The notes under the pieces were generated by a model, which saw only the letters and a list, made by a program, of their open reading frames with translations, ran no database searches and had not been told where the DNA came from. From NCBI GenBank assembly GCA_020723345.1, contig DYJA01000046.1:1-49578 (forward strand): DNA of 49,578 bases. Direction: 5' to 3'. The stretch is from Candidatus Aquidulcis sp. (GTDB lineage: Bacteria > Chloroflexota > Anaerolineae > UBA4142). Numbering within the stretch: the first letter of the stretch is position 1; each line of letters starts with the position of its first letter. A program made the translations under genes and the position numbers. This document shows, piece after piece, positions 1 through 6,341 of the stretch.

Positions 1-53
1 CCGTTTGTCCCTGCCACGAACTCAACTCAACCGGCTACCGGCTGAGTAGTAAC
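1..53. mobile_element. end of an insertion sequence (terminal inverted repeat), left window edge
   Basis: Reading the minus strand, the RHS coding sequence stops matching the RHS pattern at base 53, where GTTACTACTCAGCC begins. The same 14 bases occur on the plus strand at 49526-49539, also starting exactly where an RHS fragment ends. Beyond the 14 bases the two ends differ, as expected for the left and right ends of one IS. The bordering octamer AGTACTTG (54-61) is repeated at 49518-49525 and behaves as an 8-bp target duplication. An 8-bp duplication is usual for IS66-type elements, but no transposase is present here, so the family is inferred. Both IS overhangs are exactly 53 nt, which looks like an assembly stopping inside a multicopy element. 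Confidence 0.75.
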
Positions 54-3000
54 AGTACTTGGTGACCGCGCCGCTGTTCGTCACCTCAAACCAGTTGCCG
101 ATGTAGTACGTGGTGACGCCGCTTTCGGTGCGCTTGATGCGCGCGCCGTCCGCGTTGTACGCGTACGTCGTCGTGCTGCTGCCCGTGACCTGGGTCAGAC
201 GGTTCTCCGCGTCGTAAGTGAGCGTTTGCCCGTTGCGCGCGGTCATGTTGCCGTTCGCGTCGTAGGTGTACGTCGCGCTGCCAGCACTCGCGACCGCGTG
301 TTTGTGATTCGCGTCGTAGGTGTAGTTGGCACCGTTGAACTGCGTGATATTTCCAATCGCATTATACTCCCAACTCTGGGAATATGCACCACTCGCAGTT
401 TTCAGCCGGTCGAGGTCGTCGTAAACAAAGTTGGACACTTCGCTGCGGACTGAATCGGTAATTGTTTTTACATTGCCGACTTTGTCGTACTCGTAGCGCA
501 GGTTTTGCAAGTTGTTGGTCGTCGTCAATTGCGTGAGCCGCTGCGTCTTGGAGTCGTACGCATATTCCGTCACGACCGTGTTGCCAAATTTCAACCAGGT
601 CAGTTGGCTGGCGGGGTTGTACTGAATCTCCGTCACGTACGGCAACATCGTCGCGGGTCCTTGCTGGTTGTACGTCGTCGGGACGACTTCGCCGCCGGGA
701 TATGTCATCGTGAGGACACGATCCATCGCGTCGTACGTCCAATTCGTCGTGTACGAACTCGGCGCGCCAGTAATGGTGTTGGTTTGCGCGGTGACGCGCC
801 CTTGCTTGTCGTACACCCAGGAAGTCGTATCGACGCCGGAAACGCTCATGCCCGTGCGGCGACCGATGCCTTTGTTGCCGCTCGCCGTGCTGTCGTAGGT
901 GTAACTCGTCGTGTACGAATTCGGATCAGTCGTCGGGCAATTGACATCGCTTCGATAATTCTTGCCCTTGAGCCGATTCAATTGATCGTAGTAGAAACAC
1001 GTCGTCTGACTCTTCGCGTCAGTCTGCCGCGTCAAATTACCTGCATCGTCGTACCCGTAACTCCACGCGCCCATATCGGGATCGCTCATCGTGAGTTTCC
1101 GCCCGAGCCAGTCGTAGGTCATCGTCGTGATGTTGCGCGGGCTTGCCGCATCTTGCACCTGGGTCAACCGATTTAGCACGTCGTAACTATAATCGGTTGT
1201 GTACCAACTGCCTTGATTCAACTCCTTGACCTGAATCGTCCGCCCGAACGCGTCCGCGACCGTTTGCTTTTGATGTCCCATTGCATCGACAAGCGTCATC
1301 GTCCAGCGATCATAGATCATCGTTTGGGAAATCGTCGGATCGGGATTGATCGTCTTGATCGCGCGACCGAGCGCGTCGTACTGATGCTCGGTGAATGGCT
1401 TGCTCCAATCCGGCGTTCGGTACGTCCCGCCGCCCGTGGGGTCCGGCGTGGGCGTCGGAGTCGGCGTGGGCGCCACGCCGCCCGCGCCACCGTTCAGCAT
1501 GGGCGCAAACGAGCGATAGCGATAGGCGAGTGGCTCGATGGCGCCGGCGCTATATGGATTCGAGGTCTTGGAAACGCGACCGACGAGATCGTACGCGGTA
1601 TTGACGAGAGTAATTGTGTTGTTCATCCCCTGTGTCTGCTGTTGGATCACGCGCCCCAGTCCATCGTAGAACCACCAGGCGGATTGATACGTCGCAGTAG
1701 TTTGTCCACCCGCATCATTCCGCACCTGCACGCGTACCATCGATGGCGCGGTCGTGTTCAGGGTGTAGATGTACATCGCGGTCGGCGCATATCCTTGGTC
1801 GAGGGGTGAGGTGATCGCAATCGTTCTGCCGAACACATCGTAGCCATACGAGGTGGTCGCGCCGTTTGGATCGGTCGTGCTTGAGAGTTTGCCCAAACGA
1901 TAGTCGTAGTTGTTCGTCGTCGTTTGATTCTTCGCGTTCGTCACGCTAACTGGAAAGGTGTTGTAGGTTGTATCGTAGGTGGTCATCGTCACGCGTCCGA
2001 GCGCGTCTGTCGTGCGAATGCGATTACCGTACGCGTCGTACGCGTGTGTTTCGCGCGTGAACGAAGTCGTACTGTCCTTCCACACATCCACGCGCGTTAG
2101 ATCGCCTTTCGTCGCGGGCGTTTGAAAATCGGCGGCGTTATCGTAAAAATAACGCGTGCGCGAAGTAACAGTGACGCCGTTCTCAAGAATTCGCTCGACG
2201 CCCAACTTGTTCACAATCCACGCGGTCGTGTTCGGATAGTAGGTATGCTCAGTGCGCCGATACACACTCGCGCCATCGCCCCACTCTTCGACGTTGCTGA
2301 CGTTGCCATAGTCATCATACGTGTACACCGTCTTGGCGCGTTTGTACGTCGCCTGCCCGTCGTACGTGTCGCGCAGGGTTTGACTGATGTACACAAAATT
2401 CGATTGATCACCGCTCGCGATTTGCGCGACCGAAATTCCACGCGCCGCCCACGTATGTTCGGTTTGCGTGTACTTGGTGTTGCTCGCGTCGAGTTGAATC
2501 GTTTTCCACAACCGTCCCAAATACACGTCCTCCTGTTTGAAACTCGATTCGGTTTTTCCGCTCAGCGGGTCGGTCACGGTGACTTTTGAATGACCCCAGA
2601 ACTGGGTGTACCACGGGTGACGCGAGGTCCATGTGCTGGCGGTGGAATGGGCGGGGTCGTTGAGCGTCGCGCCTTCGTAGGTGTATGTCCAAGTCGCGGA
2701 ACTGCCCAATCCGTTGAGGAGCGTCCGGCTCGTCACGCGCGTGTACGTCGGCGCGAGTTTCAGAGTCGCGTAGCGCAACGCGGCAGTTCCATTGTCGACG
2801 TAGATGCGCATTTGGAGCGAGGTGCTCCCAGCGGGCAGTTGAAACCAGTAACAACTCCCACCGCCAAAACCTGGGTTCGTCCAATCGGAAATGCCGGTTT
2901 CCGAACTGCCGTCGAACGAGACGGCGAGGCGCACCGTGCCATCGAGCGCGGGACAGAAGGTGTGGTACGCGCCGGGCGTCAAATTGAACGCATTCAAGTA

Positions 3001-5619
3001 CGCATACTGACCGCTCGACGTGGTCGTAATGTACATCGCGTCGATACCGTCACCATTTTGACCGAATCCCACGCTGGCAGTTCCCGAACCATAACTGCCA
3101 TAGCATCCCCCCGAACCGCCGGCGCAGCCGGTATAATCCCAACTGGCTGTGTCGCGCAATGCCTGGAAATTGGCGAACCACGCGTTTTCGTAGGTGAGCG
3201 ATACCGTCCCGCCAATGCCATTCGCGATCTGCGCCAGGCGATTGCCGCTGTAGAAAAAAGTTGTGATCGGTGGAAATTGCGTGTTGTCTTTGCCAAAACG
3301 CGTAACGCTTTTTAGCGTCAGCCGCCCCCACTGATTGGTGCCCGGACCCCACCATTCTCCGGGATAGGTCGAGTAGTCGTACGCGAAGGTGTAGGCGCGC
3401 GTCAATTGCATCGTGTCGTAGTTGTCCTTCGTCCGCACGTCGACGCGATCCAATTTGTAGCGCTGCGACGGCGCGGCGCACTGGGTGTTGGTCCGCACGA
3501 GCGCATAATCGCCGCGCAAAGTGTAGGTCAAGGCGATCTCGGTGAGGTAGGTTGAACCGACATTGTTGTAGCGAATGGATTGCGGATAGAGCGCGGCATC
3601 GAACGGATGACTATTGCCGTCCAGGTTGCAATTATCCTCCATGCGGTCGCGCAGGTAGTCGTACTTGATTTCGTTGTTGTGCGTGTCGATGACCTTTTCC
3701 AACCACCAGGTGTAGGTTTCTTCTTTTGTTTGTATACCGCTATCGCGGCGCCACAATTTCGCGCGGCTGGCGGAGGTGTAGCCAAATTGGTATTGCGTTC
3801 CGTCCGTTGTCGTGACGGTCCAGCGATCAATCGCCGACTCGTACTTAATCCGCCAGTACTGCTCGCTCCAAGTATGATAGATGGTCGCATCTTGGCTGTC
3901 TTGCACCAAAGCGTTCCCCGCGCCATTCAAGACCAAGGTAAACACATCGTCGCTCGAATCATACGTGTCGCGCACATCGCGTGCGATGTAACTCGTACTG
4001 AACGACCAGCCCGCGCCGACGAAGGAGGCTTGCTGAAGATGTCCCATCATGTCGGTTGCCGCGCTGGAGTAGGACAAGCCCAATTTGGGCGCCAAGCCGT
4101 TGCGTCCCGGTGGCGCTTCAATCGGGTAGTCTGTCGCAGCGGAGCCCAAGAAGAGATTCGGTTCGGTTGCCTCCAACCTGGGCAAGTAATCTTGAATCGC
4201 CGGCGCGGAGACCAAACCAAAGTCGGTAAAGTGATTCGTCTGCGCGGTCACCGTATGTAGAGTCCGATCGACTTGGCTGGGAATCAGAATCCAATCTTTT
4301 TTGCTCGCGTCCCAATAGGCGAGCGCCAGGTCTTGTTCGCGTACGCCGCGCAGCGTATTTGGATCGTAGCGGATCGTGATCGTCACGGGCTTTTTGAATT
4401 GCTTGGTCTCTTTGGTCAGATTGGCGCGTTCGAAAGCGCGCAGCGAGAATTGATTCAGCACCAACCGCCGCGAACGTTCGTCCGGGAGCATTATTGCATT
4501 AGGACGCGCAGCAGGAGGATTGGCGATGGTGCGCGGAGTCGCCGTGGGCGTTGTCCGAGCACGCGGATTGGTCGTCGGGGTTGCGCGCAGTCGCGGCGTC
4601 GCAGTCGAGGTATTGGCGGGTGCCATATCCCAACTCGCGAGTTGTATGAACATTTCCGCGCGCGGAGTGGGTATCCCGGTCGCGGTCGAACGTACCGTCG
4701 GCGTTAGGGTTGCCGCTGGACGCGTTGTGGAAGTAGCCGGCGCGTTGGGAGAAACTGTCGGGGTCAAAGTCGCAGTGGCGCGCAACGTGGGAACAAGAGT
4801 CGCGCTCGAACGCGGACTGGGTGTGGCTGTTGCGCTGGGGCGTATTGTTGGCGCTGTCGTCGCGCTCGACAATGGCGCAGACAAAGAAGATGCTCCATTG
4901 GGTCCCAGACGCTCGAACCGGACCCGGTGTTGAACGTTGAACGTCCCCGCCGGAAAGCGCACGGTGATCTCGCCATTGCGGATCGACATGTTCACGTCGC
5001 GATCTGGCTCGACGTCGAGTTCTTGAACCGTCGCGGTTAAACTACGCGTCGCGGTCACGGTAGTGGTCGGGGTGAAGGTCGGCGTGCGCGTAATCGTCGC
5101 GGTGAAGGTGAGCGTCGGCGTGACGGTAATCGTCGCGGTTGTCGTCACGCTCGGCGTGCGTGTGATCGTCGCGGTGGTTGAGAGCGTGGGCGTTCGAGAG
5201 AGAGTCGCGGTCACGGTTCGCGAACTCGTCGGCGTTGGTGATTGGGTCGCGGATGTCGCGCGCGTCGCGCTGGCGGTCGCGGACGCTGCGGGCGTAGCGG
5301 AACTCGCCGCGGTCTTGACCAAGGTGTTCGTCGCCGTCTTCGACGCCGTGCTCGTCGGCGTGGGGGTTGAGGTCGTCGACGTGAGCACGCGCGTAGAAGT
5401 GACGTTGGGGGTCCACGTTGCGCCCTGAGCGGCAGTCGAAGGGGGCGTCAGCGTGTTGGTGGATGTGCCCGCGAGGATGTTTGCAAGCACCGGTGAGACG
5501 CCATCCTCATTGGGAACGATGGCAAAGGCAGTCAAGCCGCTGATGAGAAAAATACCGCAGACGAGCAGAATACCCCAATGCGCATGAGCGGGACGTGGGG
5601 TGGCATTTGGACGCGACAT
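22..5619 (-). CDS. giant exported RHS/YD-repeat protein, C-terminus cut by an IS
   Basis: About 1866 residues from ATG 5619, chosen because GGGAG sits 7 nt upstream. An N-terminal hydrophobic segment (about 16-36) acts as signal or membrane anchor. Two Thr/Ser/Pro-rich stalks (about 46-190 and 243-366) enclose a short beta domain, and another beta domain follows (about 393-470). A SpvB-like entry motif (YPIEAPPGRNGLAPKLGLSY, about 498) precedes a long region ending in many YD repeats of the YDxxGRxxxxxD type (about 1190-1860). RHS proteins form a hollow shell around a variable, often toxic, C-terminal tip. Here the frame ends a few codons after VTKY, where IS sequence supplies SAGSRLS and a stop. 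The missing continuation (YYFGGKRVAMRAPSG...) is at the other window end. The core is certain; surface display is inferred. Confidence 0.93.
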   Translation of the reverse strand: MSRPNATPRPAHAHWGILLVCGIFLISGLTAFAIVPNEDGVSPVLANILAGTSTNTLTPPSTAAQGATWTPNVTSTRVLTSTTSTPTPTSTASKTATNTLVKTAASSATPAASATASATRATSATQSPTPTSSRTVTATLSRTPTLSTTATITRTPSVTTTATITVTPTLTFTATITRTPTFTPTTTVTATRSLTATVQELDVEPDRDVNMSIRNGEITVRFPAGTFNVQHRVRFERLGPNGASSLSAPLSSATTAPTIRPSATATPSPRSSATLVPTLRATATLTPTVSPNAPATSTTRPAATLTPTVRSTATGIPTPRAEMFIQLASWDMAPANTSTATPRLRATPTTNPRARTTPTATPRTIANPPAARPNAIMLPDERSRRLVLNQFSLRAFERANLTKETKQFKKPVTITIRYDPNTLRGVREQDLALAYWDASKKDWILIPSQVDRTLHTVTAQTNHFTDFGLVSAPAIQDYLPRLEATEPNLFLGSAATDYPIEAPPGRNGLAPKLGLSYSSAATDMMGHLQQASFVGAGWSFSTSYIARDVRDTYDSSDDVFTLVLNGAGNALVQDSQDATIYHTWSEQYWRIKYESAIDRWTVTTTDGTQYQFGYTSASRAKLWRRDSGIQTKEETYTWWLEKVIDTHNNEIKYDYLRDRMEDNCNLDGNSHPFDAALYPQSIRYNNVGSTYLTEIALTYTLRGDYALVRTNTQCAAPSQRYKLDRVDVRTKDNYDTMQLTRAYTFAYDYSTYPGEWWGPGTNQWGRLTLKSVTRFGKDNTQFPPITTFFYSGNRLAQIANGIGGTVSLTYENAWFANFQALRDTASWDYTGCAGGSGGCYGSYGSGTASVGFGQNGDGIDAMYITTTSSGQYAYLNAFNLTPGAYHTFCPALDGTVRLAVSFDGSSETGISDWTNPGFGGGSCYWFQLPAGSTSLQMRIYVDNGTAALRYATLKLAPTYTRVTSRTLLNGLGSSATWTYTYEGATLNDPAHSTASTWTSRHPWYTQFWGHSKVTVTDPLSGKTESSFKQEDVYLGRLWKTIQLDASNTKYTQTEHTWAARGISVAQIASGDQSNFVYISQTLRDTYDGQATYKRAKTVYTYDDYGNVSNVEEWGDGASVYRRTEHTYYPNTTAWIVNKLGVERILENGVTVTSRTRYFYDNAADFQTPATKGDLTRVDVWKDSTTSFTRETHAYDAYGNRIRTTDALGRVTMTTYDTTYNTFPVSVTNAKNQTTTNNYDYRLGKLSSTTDPNGATTSYGYDVFGRTIAITSPLDQGYAPTAMYIYTLNTTAPSMVRVQVRNDAGGQTTATYQSAWWFYDGLGRVIQQQTQGMNNTITLVNTAYDLVGRVSKTSNPYSAGAIEPLAYRYRSFAPMLNGGAGGVAPTPTPTPTPDPTGGGTYRTPDWSKPFTEHQYDALGRAIKTINPDPTISQTMIYDRWTMTLVDAMGHQKQTVADAFGRTIQVKELNQGSWYTTDYSYDVLNRLTQVQDAASPRNITTMTYDWLGRKLTMSDPDMGAWSYGYDDAGNLTRQTDAKSQTTCFYYDQLNRLKGKNYRSDVNCPTTDPNSYTTSYTYDSTASGNKGIGRRTGMSVSGVDTTSWVYDKQGRVTAQTNTITGAPSSYTTNWTYDAMDRVLTMTYPGGEVVPTTYNQQGPATMLPYVTEIQYNPASQLTWLKFGNTVVTEYAYDSKTQRLTQLTTTNNLQNLRYEYDKVGNVKTITDSVRSEVSNFVYDDLDRLKTASGAYSQSWEYNAIGNITQFNGANYTYDANHKHAVASAGSATYTYDANGNMTARNGQTLTYDAENRLTQVTGSSTTTYAYNADGARIKRTESGVTTYYIGNWFEVTNSGAVTKYCYYSAGSRLS
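5042..5460. repeat. degenerate tandem repeat encoding Thr/Pro stalk
   Basis: Inside the RHS gene, imperfect units encode TATITRTP / TATITVTP-type peptides several times, followed by further Thr/Ser/Ala-rich sequence. The DNA repeats GTCGCGGT and GGCGT(G/A) blocks on the plus strand. Such tracts normally form extended O-glycosylatable cell-wall or surface spacers and are prone to slippage. They also create long spurious frames on both strands. Confidence 0.7.
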
Positions 5620-5785
5620 CGCGAATCTCCCGTAAAGAATGTACAGCAAGATCGAGAGCGTTCAGTTTGAGGTAGTGCCACGTTCAGTAGTGCCCGGGGT
5701 CAAAGAAAGAAAGTGCCTGCCGCGACCGGATCACGGCAAGTGCTCATCACCTGCCATATCTCGGTGGCGTGTATACATTGCGAAC

Positions 5786-5833
5786 AATATAAAGCAACAA
5801 TGTCAATATTTCAACCTGTGGATTTCCGCAGGT
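5786..5833 (-). promoter_or_regulatory. RHS promoter with abutting lux-box-like operator
   Basis: On the minus strand a near-consensus promoter reads TTGAAA (5809-5814), 17-nt spacer, TATATT (5786-5791). Immediately upstream, sharing one base with the -35, lies the 20-bp inverted repeat ACCTGTGGATTTCCGCAGGT (5814-5833). It matches the classic lux-box layout (ACCTGT...CAGGT ends, 20 bp) and the position, next to -35, used by LuxR-type activators. The promoter reads toward the RHS gene, leaving a leader of about 160 nt. The LuxR-type HTH gene directly upstream is the obvious candidate regulator; that link is inferred. Confidence 0.7.
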
Positions 5834-5856
5834 ATACGAATAACACCAAGCCACAC

Positions 5857-6099
5857 TCATCTATCTTGCCAGCCCGATTCTTCCCGATGACTTTGGCTGT
5901 CGATCCATCCACTGTTCACCGCCCACACTGCCACTTGAATTCGGGAAGCAAAACCCAGTTTTTTGAACACATTGCCGAGGTGGAACTCGACTGTTCTCTC
6001 TGCAATACCTAGTTCGTGCGCAACCTCCCTGTTGGTCTTGGCTGCCACCAACAAATTGATCACTTTCCGTTCTCGCTCTGTCAATCTGGCATTCCCCAT
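5857..6099 (-). CDS. small stand-alone LuxR/GerE-type HTH transcriptional regulator
   Basis: 80 residues from ATG 6099, chosen over a longer open frame because GGAGGAAG lies 5 nt upstream. Nearly the whole protein is the LuxR C-terminal helix-turn-helix: LTERERKVINLLVAAKTNRE, then AHELGIAERTVEFHLGNVFKKL. The conserved T-x-RE-x-V start, the NxE(V/I)A turn and TVxxHLxNVxKKL recognition helix are all present. There is no N-terminal receiver or autoinducer-binding domain, so any signal input must come from a partner or from expression level. It precedes the RHS gene on the same strand by 237 bp, and that gap contains a lux-box-like palindrome at the RHS promoter. Confidence 0.88.
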   Translation of the reverse strand: MGNARLTERERKVINLLVAAKTNREVAHELGIAERTVEFHLGNVFKKLGFASRIQVAVWAVNSGWIDSQSHREESGWQDR

Positions 6100-6341
6100 C
6101 GCTCTTCCTCCATGTAGTGGATGTACTAGCCCTCGAAACGTGCGACACGAAAATGTGAACGCAAACTTGATAACAAAATCAGGGATAGCGGGCATCATCA
6201 CTCTGAAATATACCACACGGGTACTCACGAAGTACTCACGGTACCAATTCACGCGAAACAGGATTCATCGGCAATATAGTCAATTTTTTTCCAAAGTCAA
6301 AAAAGAGCCGCGCGAAAGGTAAAAATTCTTTAACCGCGTGC

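Follow-up and report, generated by a model that had tools for sequence, protein, structure and literature searches.

The stretch of DNA analysed here (the window, 49,578 nucleotides) begins at the first base of its contig, so that the 3′ end of the RHS gene discussed below coincides with the contig edge. This gene occupies positions 22..5619 of the minus strand, with its ATG at 5619, and encodes an RHS/YD-repeat protein of 1865 amino acids (Pfam RHS_repeat, E=7e-32; NCBIfam YD_repeat_2x match). The protein has a hydrophobic N-terminal segment and a long T/P-rich stretch; by the look of its N-terminus it would be exported. The RHS frame (window 1-120) stops 21 bp from the contig edge, directly past a typical RHS core segment, and the true C-terminus may therefore have been lost in assembly. 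The next gene upstream (5857..6099, minus strand) encodes a protein of 80 residues with a GerE/LuxR/NarL DNA-binding domain. It is preceded by a good ribosome-binding sequence, GGAGGA (6106..6111, minus strand), 6 nt before the ATG, and by a candidate promoter, TTGACT-16-TATATT (6273..6300, minus strand).

The 80-residue protein scored 67.9 bits against Pfam PF00196 (GerE/LuxR HTH, E=6e-19), above the curated GerE HTH cut-off of 23.5, which places it in the LuxR/GerE superfamily of DNA-binding domains. GerE-type HTH models were the only ones it matched in Pfam and NCBIfam. Its relatives in NCBIfam and the PDB are PedR, NarL, VpsT and GerE, the best NCBIfam match being PedR (1.5e-13, below the PedR cut-off). 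The recognition helix reads TVEFHLGN. The first-pass annotation had described this gene as a LuxR 'solo'. In that group the HTH is by definition accompanied by an autoinducer-binding domain, and a cognate LuxI is lacking (PMC4338825); Pfam and NCBIfam reveal the HTH only and the autoinducer-binding domain is absent, so this label had to be dropped. Assignment to the NarL/FixJ response regulators was rejected as well, since the protein has no receiver domain.

A 20-bp lux-box-like palindrome, ACCTGTGGATTTCCGCAGGT (ACCTGCGGAAATCCACAGGT in the RHS reading direction), is located at 5814..5833, between the two genes and 23 bp from the HTH stop codon; 8 out of its 10 pairs are complementary. It abuts a promoter, TTGAAA-17-TATATT, which lies on the minus strand, reads towards the RHS gene and scores 10/12 over both hexamers. 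The first T of the -35 hexamer (5809..5814) is the last base of the operator, and the -10 hexamer (5786..5791) begins 22 nt past the operator end. RHS transcription is expected to start near 5779-5780; with a start about 7 nt past the -10 box the operator would be centred at approximately -43 to -44. This arrangement of repeat, promoter and upstream HTH gene had been read from the sequence correctly to the base. The palindrome has the length of a lux box, its CTG-N10-CAG pattern and its ACCTG and CAGGT ends, and it overlaps the -35 hexamer as class II lux boxes do. The leader that separates the RHS promoter from the start codon contains a terminator-like hairpin with a T-rich tail at 5716-5740 (minus strand); as a whole, this leader folded no better than shuffled sequences, and Rfam gave no match in the window.

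Considered alone, as an inverted repeat or as a match to the lux box of V. fischeri, the palindrome is unremarkable and does not exceed chance. In the window, 72 20-mers have 8/10 palindromic pairs or more, against an expectation of about 48, and 73 sites score at least 12/16 on the V. fischeri consensus; for this reason neither inverted-repeat statistics nor the lux-box score was accepted as evidence for an operator. The abundance of such sites would fit a repeat that arose by chance and has no relation to the HTH gene. However, 17 of the 18 scored positions match ACCTGTGGANNTCCACAGGT, a consensus built from other genomes, where such sites adjoin related HTH genes; a match with three or fewer mismatches occurs once in the window and in none of 100 shuffles. 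The similarity to this independently derived consensus is well beyond chance. Near-identical sites are also found beside related HTH genes in many families, with none in the control, and we regard a fortuitous repeat as highly improbable.

The HTH loci were grouped by the residues of the recognition helix, the test group carrying F or Y before H (TV-x-[F/Y]-H, referred to below as [F/Y]H). A consensus-free scan for palindromic CTG-N10-CAG between -60 and +400 of the HTH stop detected it at 13 out of 16 [F/Y]H loci and at none of 41 loci of the class with other helices (p=2e-10; the 16 loci are partly non-independent, two being from one genome and several from family f12). Scanning with the consensus ACCTGTGGANNTCCACAGGT (at least 14/18) gave 9/16 and 0/71, respectively. 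The comparative search suggested in the first-pass annotation thus gave support, as the operator recurs beside related HTH genes; upstream of an RHS gene it was seen only in the window. Over the HTH, the 80-residue protein shares 44-57% identity with its best matches in the class. Loci of the non-FH type that are equally near to it also exist (L035, 54%; L002, 49%), and closeness alone therefore does not explain the split in operator occurrence. Among its relatives with an operator, the majority are response regulators that contain a receiver domain. In the HTH tree (63 columns, little resolved) the window protein is not placed firmly in the main FH clade and the helix label takes 7 changes; a single origin of [F/Y]H proteins is not decided by so few columns. 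Overall, the co-occurrence supports the view that the operator belongs with the HTH type of the 80-residue protein. Where the regulator has TVRFH in place of TV[E/D]FH (L111, L114 and L032), the CTG...CAG sites differ in their inner bases (CCCTGGCTATCTCGCCAGGG, ACCTGTCGAAAGTGGCAGGT and GACTGTCGTTCAAGACAGTG), and these differences hint at a helix-to-site rule.

Starting from the motif instead, a search for ACCTGTRGNNNYCYACAGGT across 298 class genomes located 11 places in 8 of them; the reversed pattern gave none. Seven of the places directly follow an [F/Y]H HTH gene and two precede another gene with a good -10 box (G082:C320:8990 and G108:C197). The place in G048 looks like a chance occurrence with no fitting -10, and at G187:C536 there is no HTH gene within the part of the sequence available. 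When a narrower pattern was applied to the whole phylum, four places were found, of which those in G566 and G405 have no adjoining [F/Y]H HTH. The phylum-wide search does not extend the HTH-operator module, which is so far seen within the class. The G405 place (L176, G405:C84:51145) belongs to another class and is a perfect CCTGTGGATATCCACAGG palindrome between divergent sigma-factor-like genes.

Nineteen promoters were compared. In 16 of them a -10-like hexamer starts 20-22 nt past the promoter-proximal operator (11 at 21, 3 at 22 and 2 at 20), and a further operator, 23-24 nt upstream, is present in many promoters; only one is found in the window and in G003. The distance from the HTH stop to the operator is not fixed and ranges across loci from 11 to 268 nt. 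The module was defined here as an [F/Y]H HTH with an operator at most 600 bp downstream and a -10 box at 20-22 nt, and the window conforms to it. The operator had been called lux-box-like from its 20-bp length, its ACCTG...CAGGT ends and its place at the -35; the description is supported, and the place at the -35 proved to be conserved across the relatives. The operator-to--10 spacing is that of a class II activator, a layout which suggests activation.

The HTH protein might instead be a repressor that, once bound to the operator, keeps RNA polymerase from the -35 of the RHS promoter. The overlap with the first -35 base and the good hexamers of the window promoter would agree with this, and PedR, which is likewise HTH-only, both activates and represses (PMC13421787). 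A repressor, however, needs no fixed spacing such as that kept in the 16 promoters, and tandem operators placed upstream rather than across the start are the usual arrangement for an activator; we therefore consider repression unlikely. It is far less probable still that the palindrome acts as RNA, forming a hairpin between the two genes that terminates or attenuates transcription. A stem of 8 bp could form shortly after the HTH stop, but no T run follows it and the terminator scan made no call. Moreover, the distance that is kept is that to the -10 box and not that to the HTH stop, and the element also precedes targets without an adjoining HTH gene (G082:8990 and G108:C197).

In G003, a genome of the same family and another genus, an HTH-only gene of 68 amino acids with the ribosome site GGAGG was found. 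An operator is situated 11 nt past its stop codon, overlapped by TTGACA, with TATCAT 22 nt on. Downstream are an open reading frame of 229 residues, the C-terminal part of which is rich in cysteine, and an ABC transporter whose membrane and ATPase domains are fused. The window protein is therefore not the lone HTH-only regulator with such an operator. In other genomes the genes after the operator encode mostly exported proteins whose N-terminus carries a signal-like segment, in many cases MRKVKFVSVFVLLALLLS; the majority gave no match in Pfam and two contain TPR repeats. None of these targets is an RHS protein, and the operator pattern is absent from the other RHS genes of the window's own genome.

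Several other features were observed at the relatives' loci. The target mRNAs of L165, L127, L128, L132, L133, L134, L137, L166 and L167 contain a conserved hairpin, TGCCACCGG-AGAGA-CCGGTGAGTATCT, about 6-12 nt past the -10 box and shortly before the ribosome site, with paired changes in the stem (CACTGG/CCGGTG, GCTGG/CTGGTG); neither the window nor G003 has this hairpin. At L131, L133 and L165, in three genomes, the response regulator is preceded by a secreted-looking protein of 482-501 amino acids sharing the start GYWLLPISG, which has no Pfam match and is not a histidine kinase by Pfam. G104 and G082 (L165, L127 and L132) have units of operator and exported-protein gene in a row, with partial HTH genes between some of them, as if these units had been duplicated.

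ACCTG-N10-CAGGT occurs only once in the 6.34 Mb genome, at the window operator (control pattern, 2). The genome has one good operator site, the other (G000:C72:24215) having 3 mismatches, so that the HTH and RHS genes look like a dedicated pair. In the 1000 bp upstream of the HTH gene no good copy was found (best score 10/18). Feedback on the HTH gene through this site is unlikely, because there is no operator copy at its own promoter. No orthologue of the 80-residue protein was found in the genus; the same-genus genomes G001 and G002 keep the NOL1-type methyltransferase gene and have neither HTH nor RHS gene beside it. No close relative keeping both genes was found.

The outer bases of the palindrome are identical to those of lux boxes, and two marginal Autoind_bind matches lie in long open frames of the genome. 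A true AHL quorum-sensing lux box, read by a LuxR-AHL protein encoded elsewhere in the genome, could account for this. No LuxI-type synthase match was obtained, although the control genomes gave none either and its absence is unproved. Against this explanation, the site is the only one in the genome and the operator tracks HTH genes without AHL-binding domains. There is no evidence for AHL signalling at the RHS operator, and we give this explanation very little credence.

We consider it likely that the 80-residue HTH protein is a class II activator that acts locally, through 5814-5833, and is dedicated to the RHS gene. It would be expressed from its own promoter (6273-6300) and bind the operator as a dimer, in the way LuxR binds the lux box; the bound protein would then contact RNA polymerase at the -35 and render the RHS promoter active from the class II position. 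The receiver-domain response regulators of the relatives are presumably gated by phosphorylation. The window and G003 proteins have no receiver domain and their activity is probably set by their own expression level: with neither a receiver nor a ligand domain, regulation is expected to act through protein abundance. Because the HTH tree is poorly resolved, loss of the receiver domain in the window lineage can be proposed only tentatively. The protein appears to belong to a LuxR/NarL-type set in which a gene for a TV-x-[F/Y]-H helix is followed by a ACCTGTGG-like operator and then by the controlled gene, usually one for an exported protein. As this pairing of protein and switch is repeated, promoter spacing included, in many distant relatives within the class, the switch itself appears to be real.

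A wider interpretation, to which we attach about even weight, is that an operator code of the lux-box type belongs to the [F/Y]H helix rather than to AHL quorum sensing. Class-wide, this code would be used both by response regulators and by HTH proteins lacking a receiver to turn on adjoining genes for exported proteins, the window being a stripped-down case with a single-HTH class II activator of an exported RHS gene. From sequence alone, the analysis predicts a triple of regulator, operator and target in uncultured bacteria, about whose regulation next to nothing is known. It also suggests that lux-box sequence is separable from AHL signalling, the same outer bases occurring with response regulators and HTH-only proteins, and that an F or Y preceding the H of the recognition helix may correspond to CTG-N10-CAG in the site. 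Within a partial coverage of the literature, no paper carrying the conserved core TGTGGAAATCCACA or TGTGGATTTCCACA was found.

With the V. fischeri lux box, ACCTGTAGGATCGTACAGGT (PMC4444344), and its LuxR, and with the LasR and RhlR boxes, the window system shares the 20-bp length, the ACCTG...CAGGT ends, the class II position at the -35 and FH in the helix; LasR and RhlR read CTG...CAG boxes and have NFH at the helix position matching the window FH. Unlike these regulators, the window protein has no autoinducer-binding domain, the inner bases of its site are GTGGAAATCCAC and the partner genes are not luxI. The Nitrospira box, ACCTGGCGGTTCCGCCAGGT, which was tested by EMSA, is of the lux-box type outside Proteobacteria and has the same ends as the window operator, but its regulator, NspR1, is a complete LuxR that responds to AHL and has a synthase gene of its own, nspI (PMC8553950). 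GerE of B. subtilis, a PDB match, and cyanobacterial PedR consist of the HTH domain alone, as does the window protein. PedR recognises RWWTRGGYNNYY and uses Cys80 to sense redox state (PMC13421787). Neither this site nor the Cys80 switch applies to the window protein, which lacks cysteine and has a site of another sequence. The NarL/FixJ-type response regulators of G108, G147, G104, G155 and G059 have the [F/Y]H helix, an HTH 43-57% identical to that of the window protein and the same operator and spacing, and differ from it in possessing a receiver domain.
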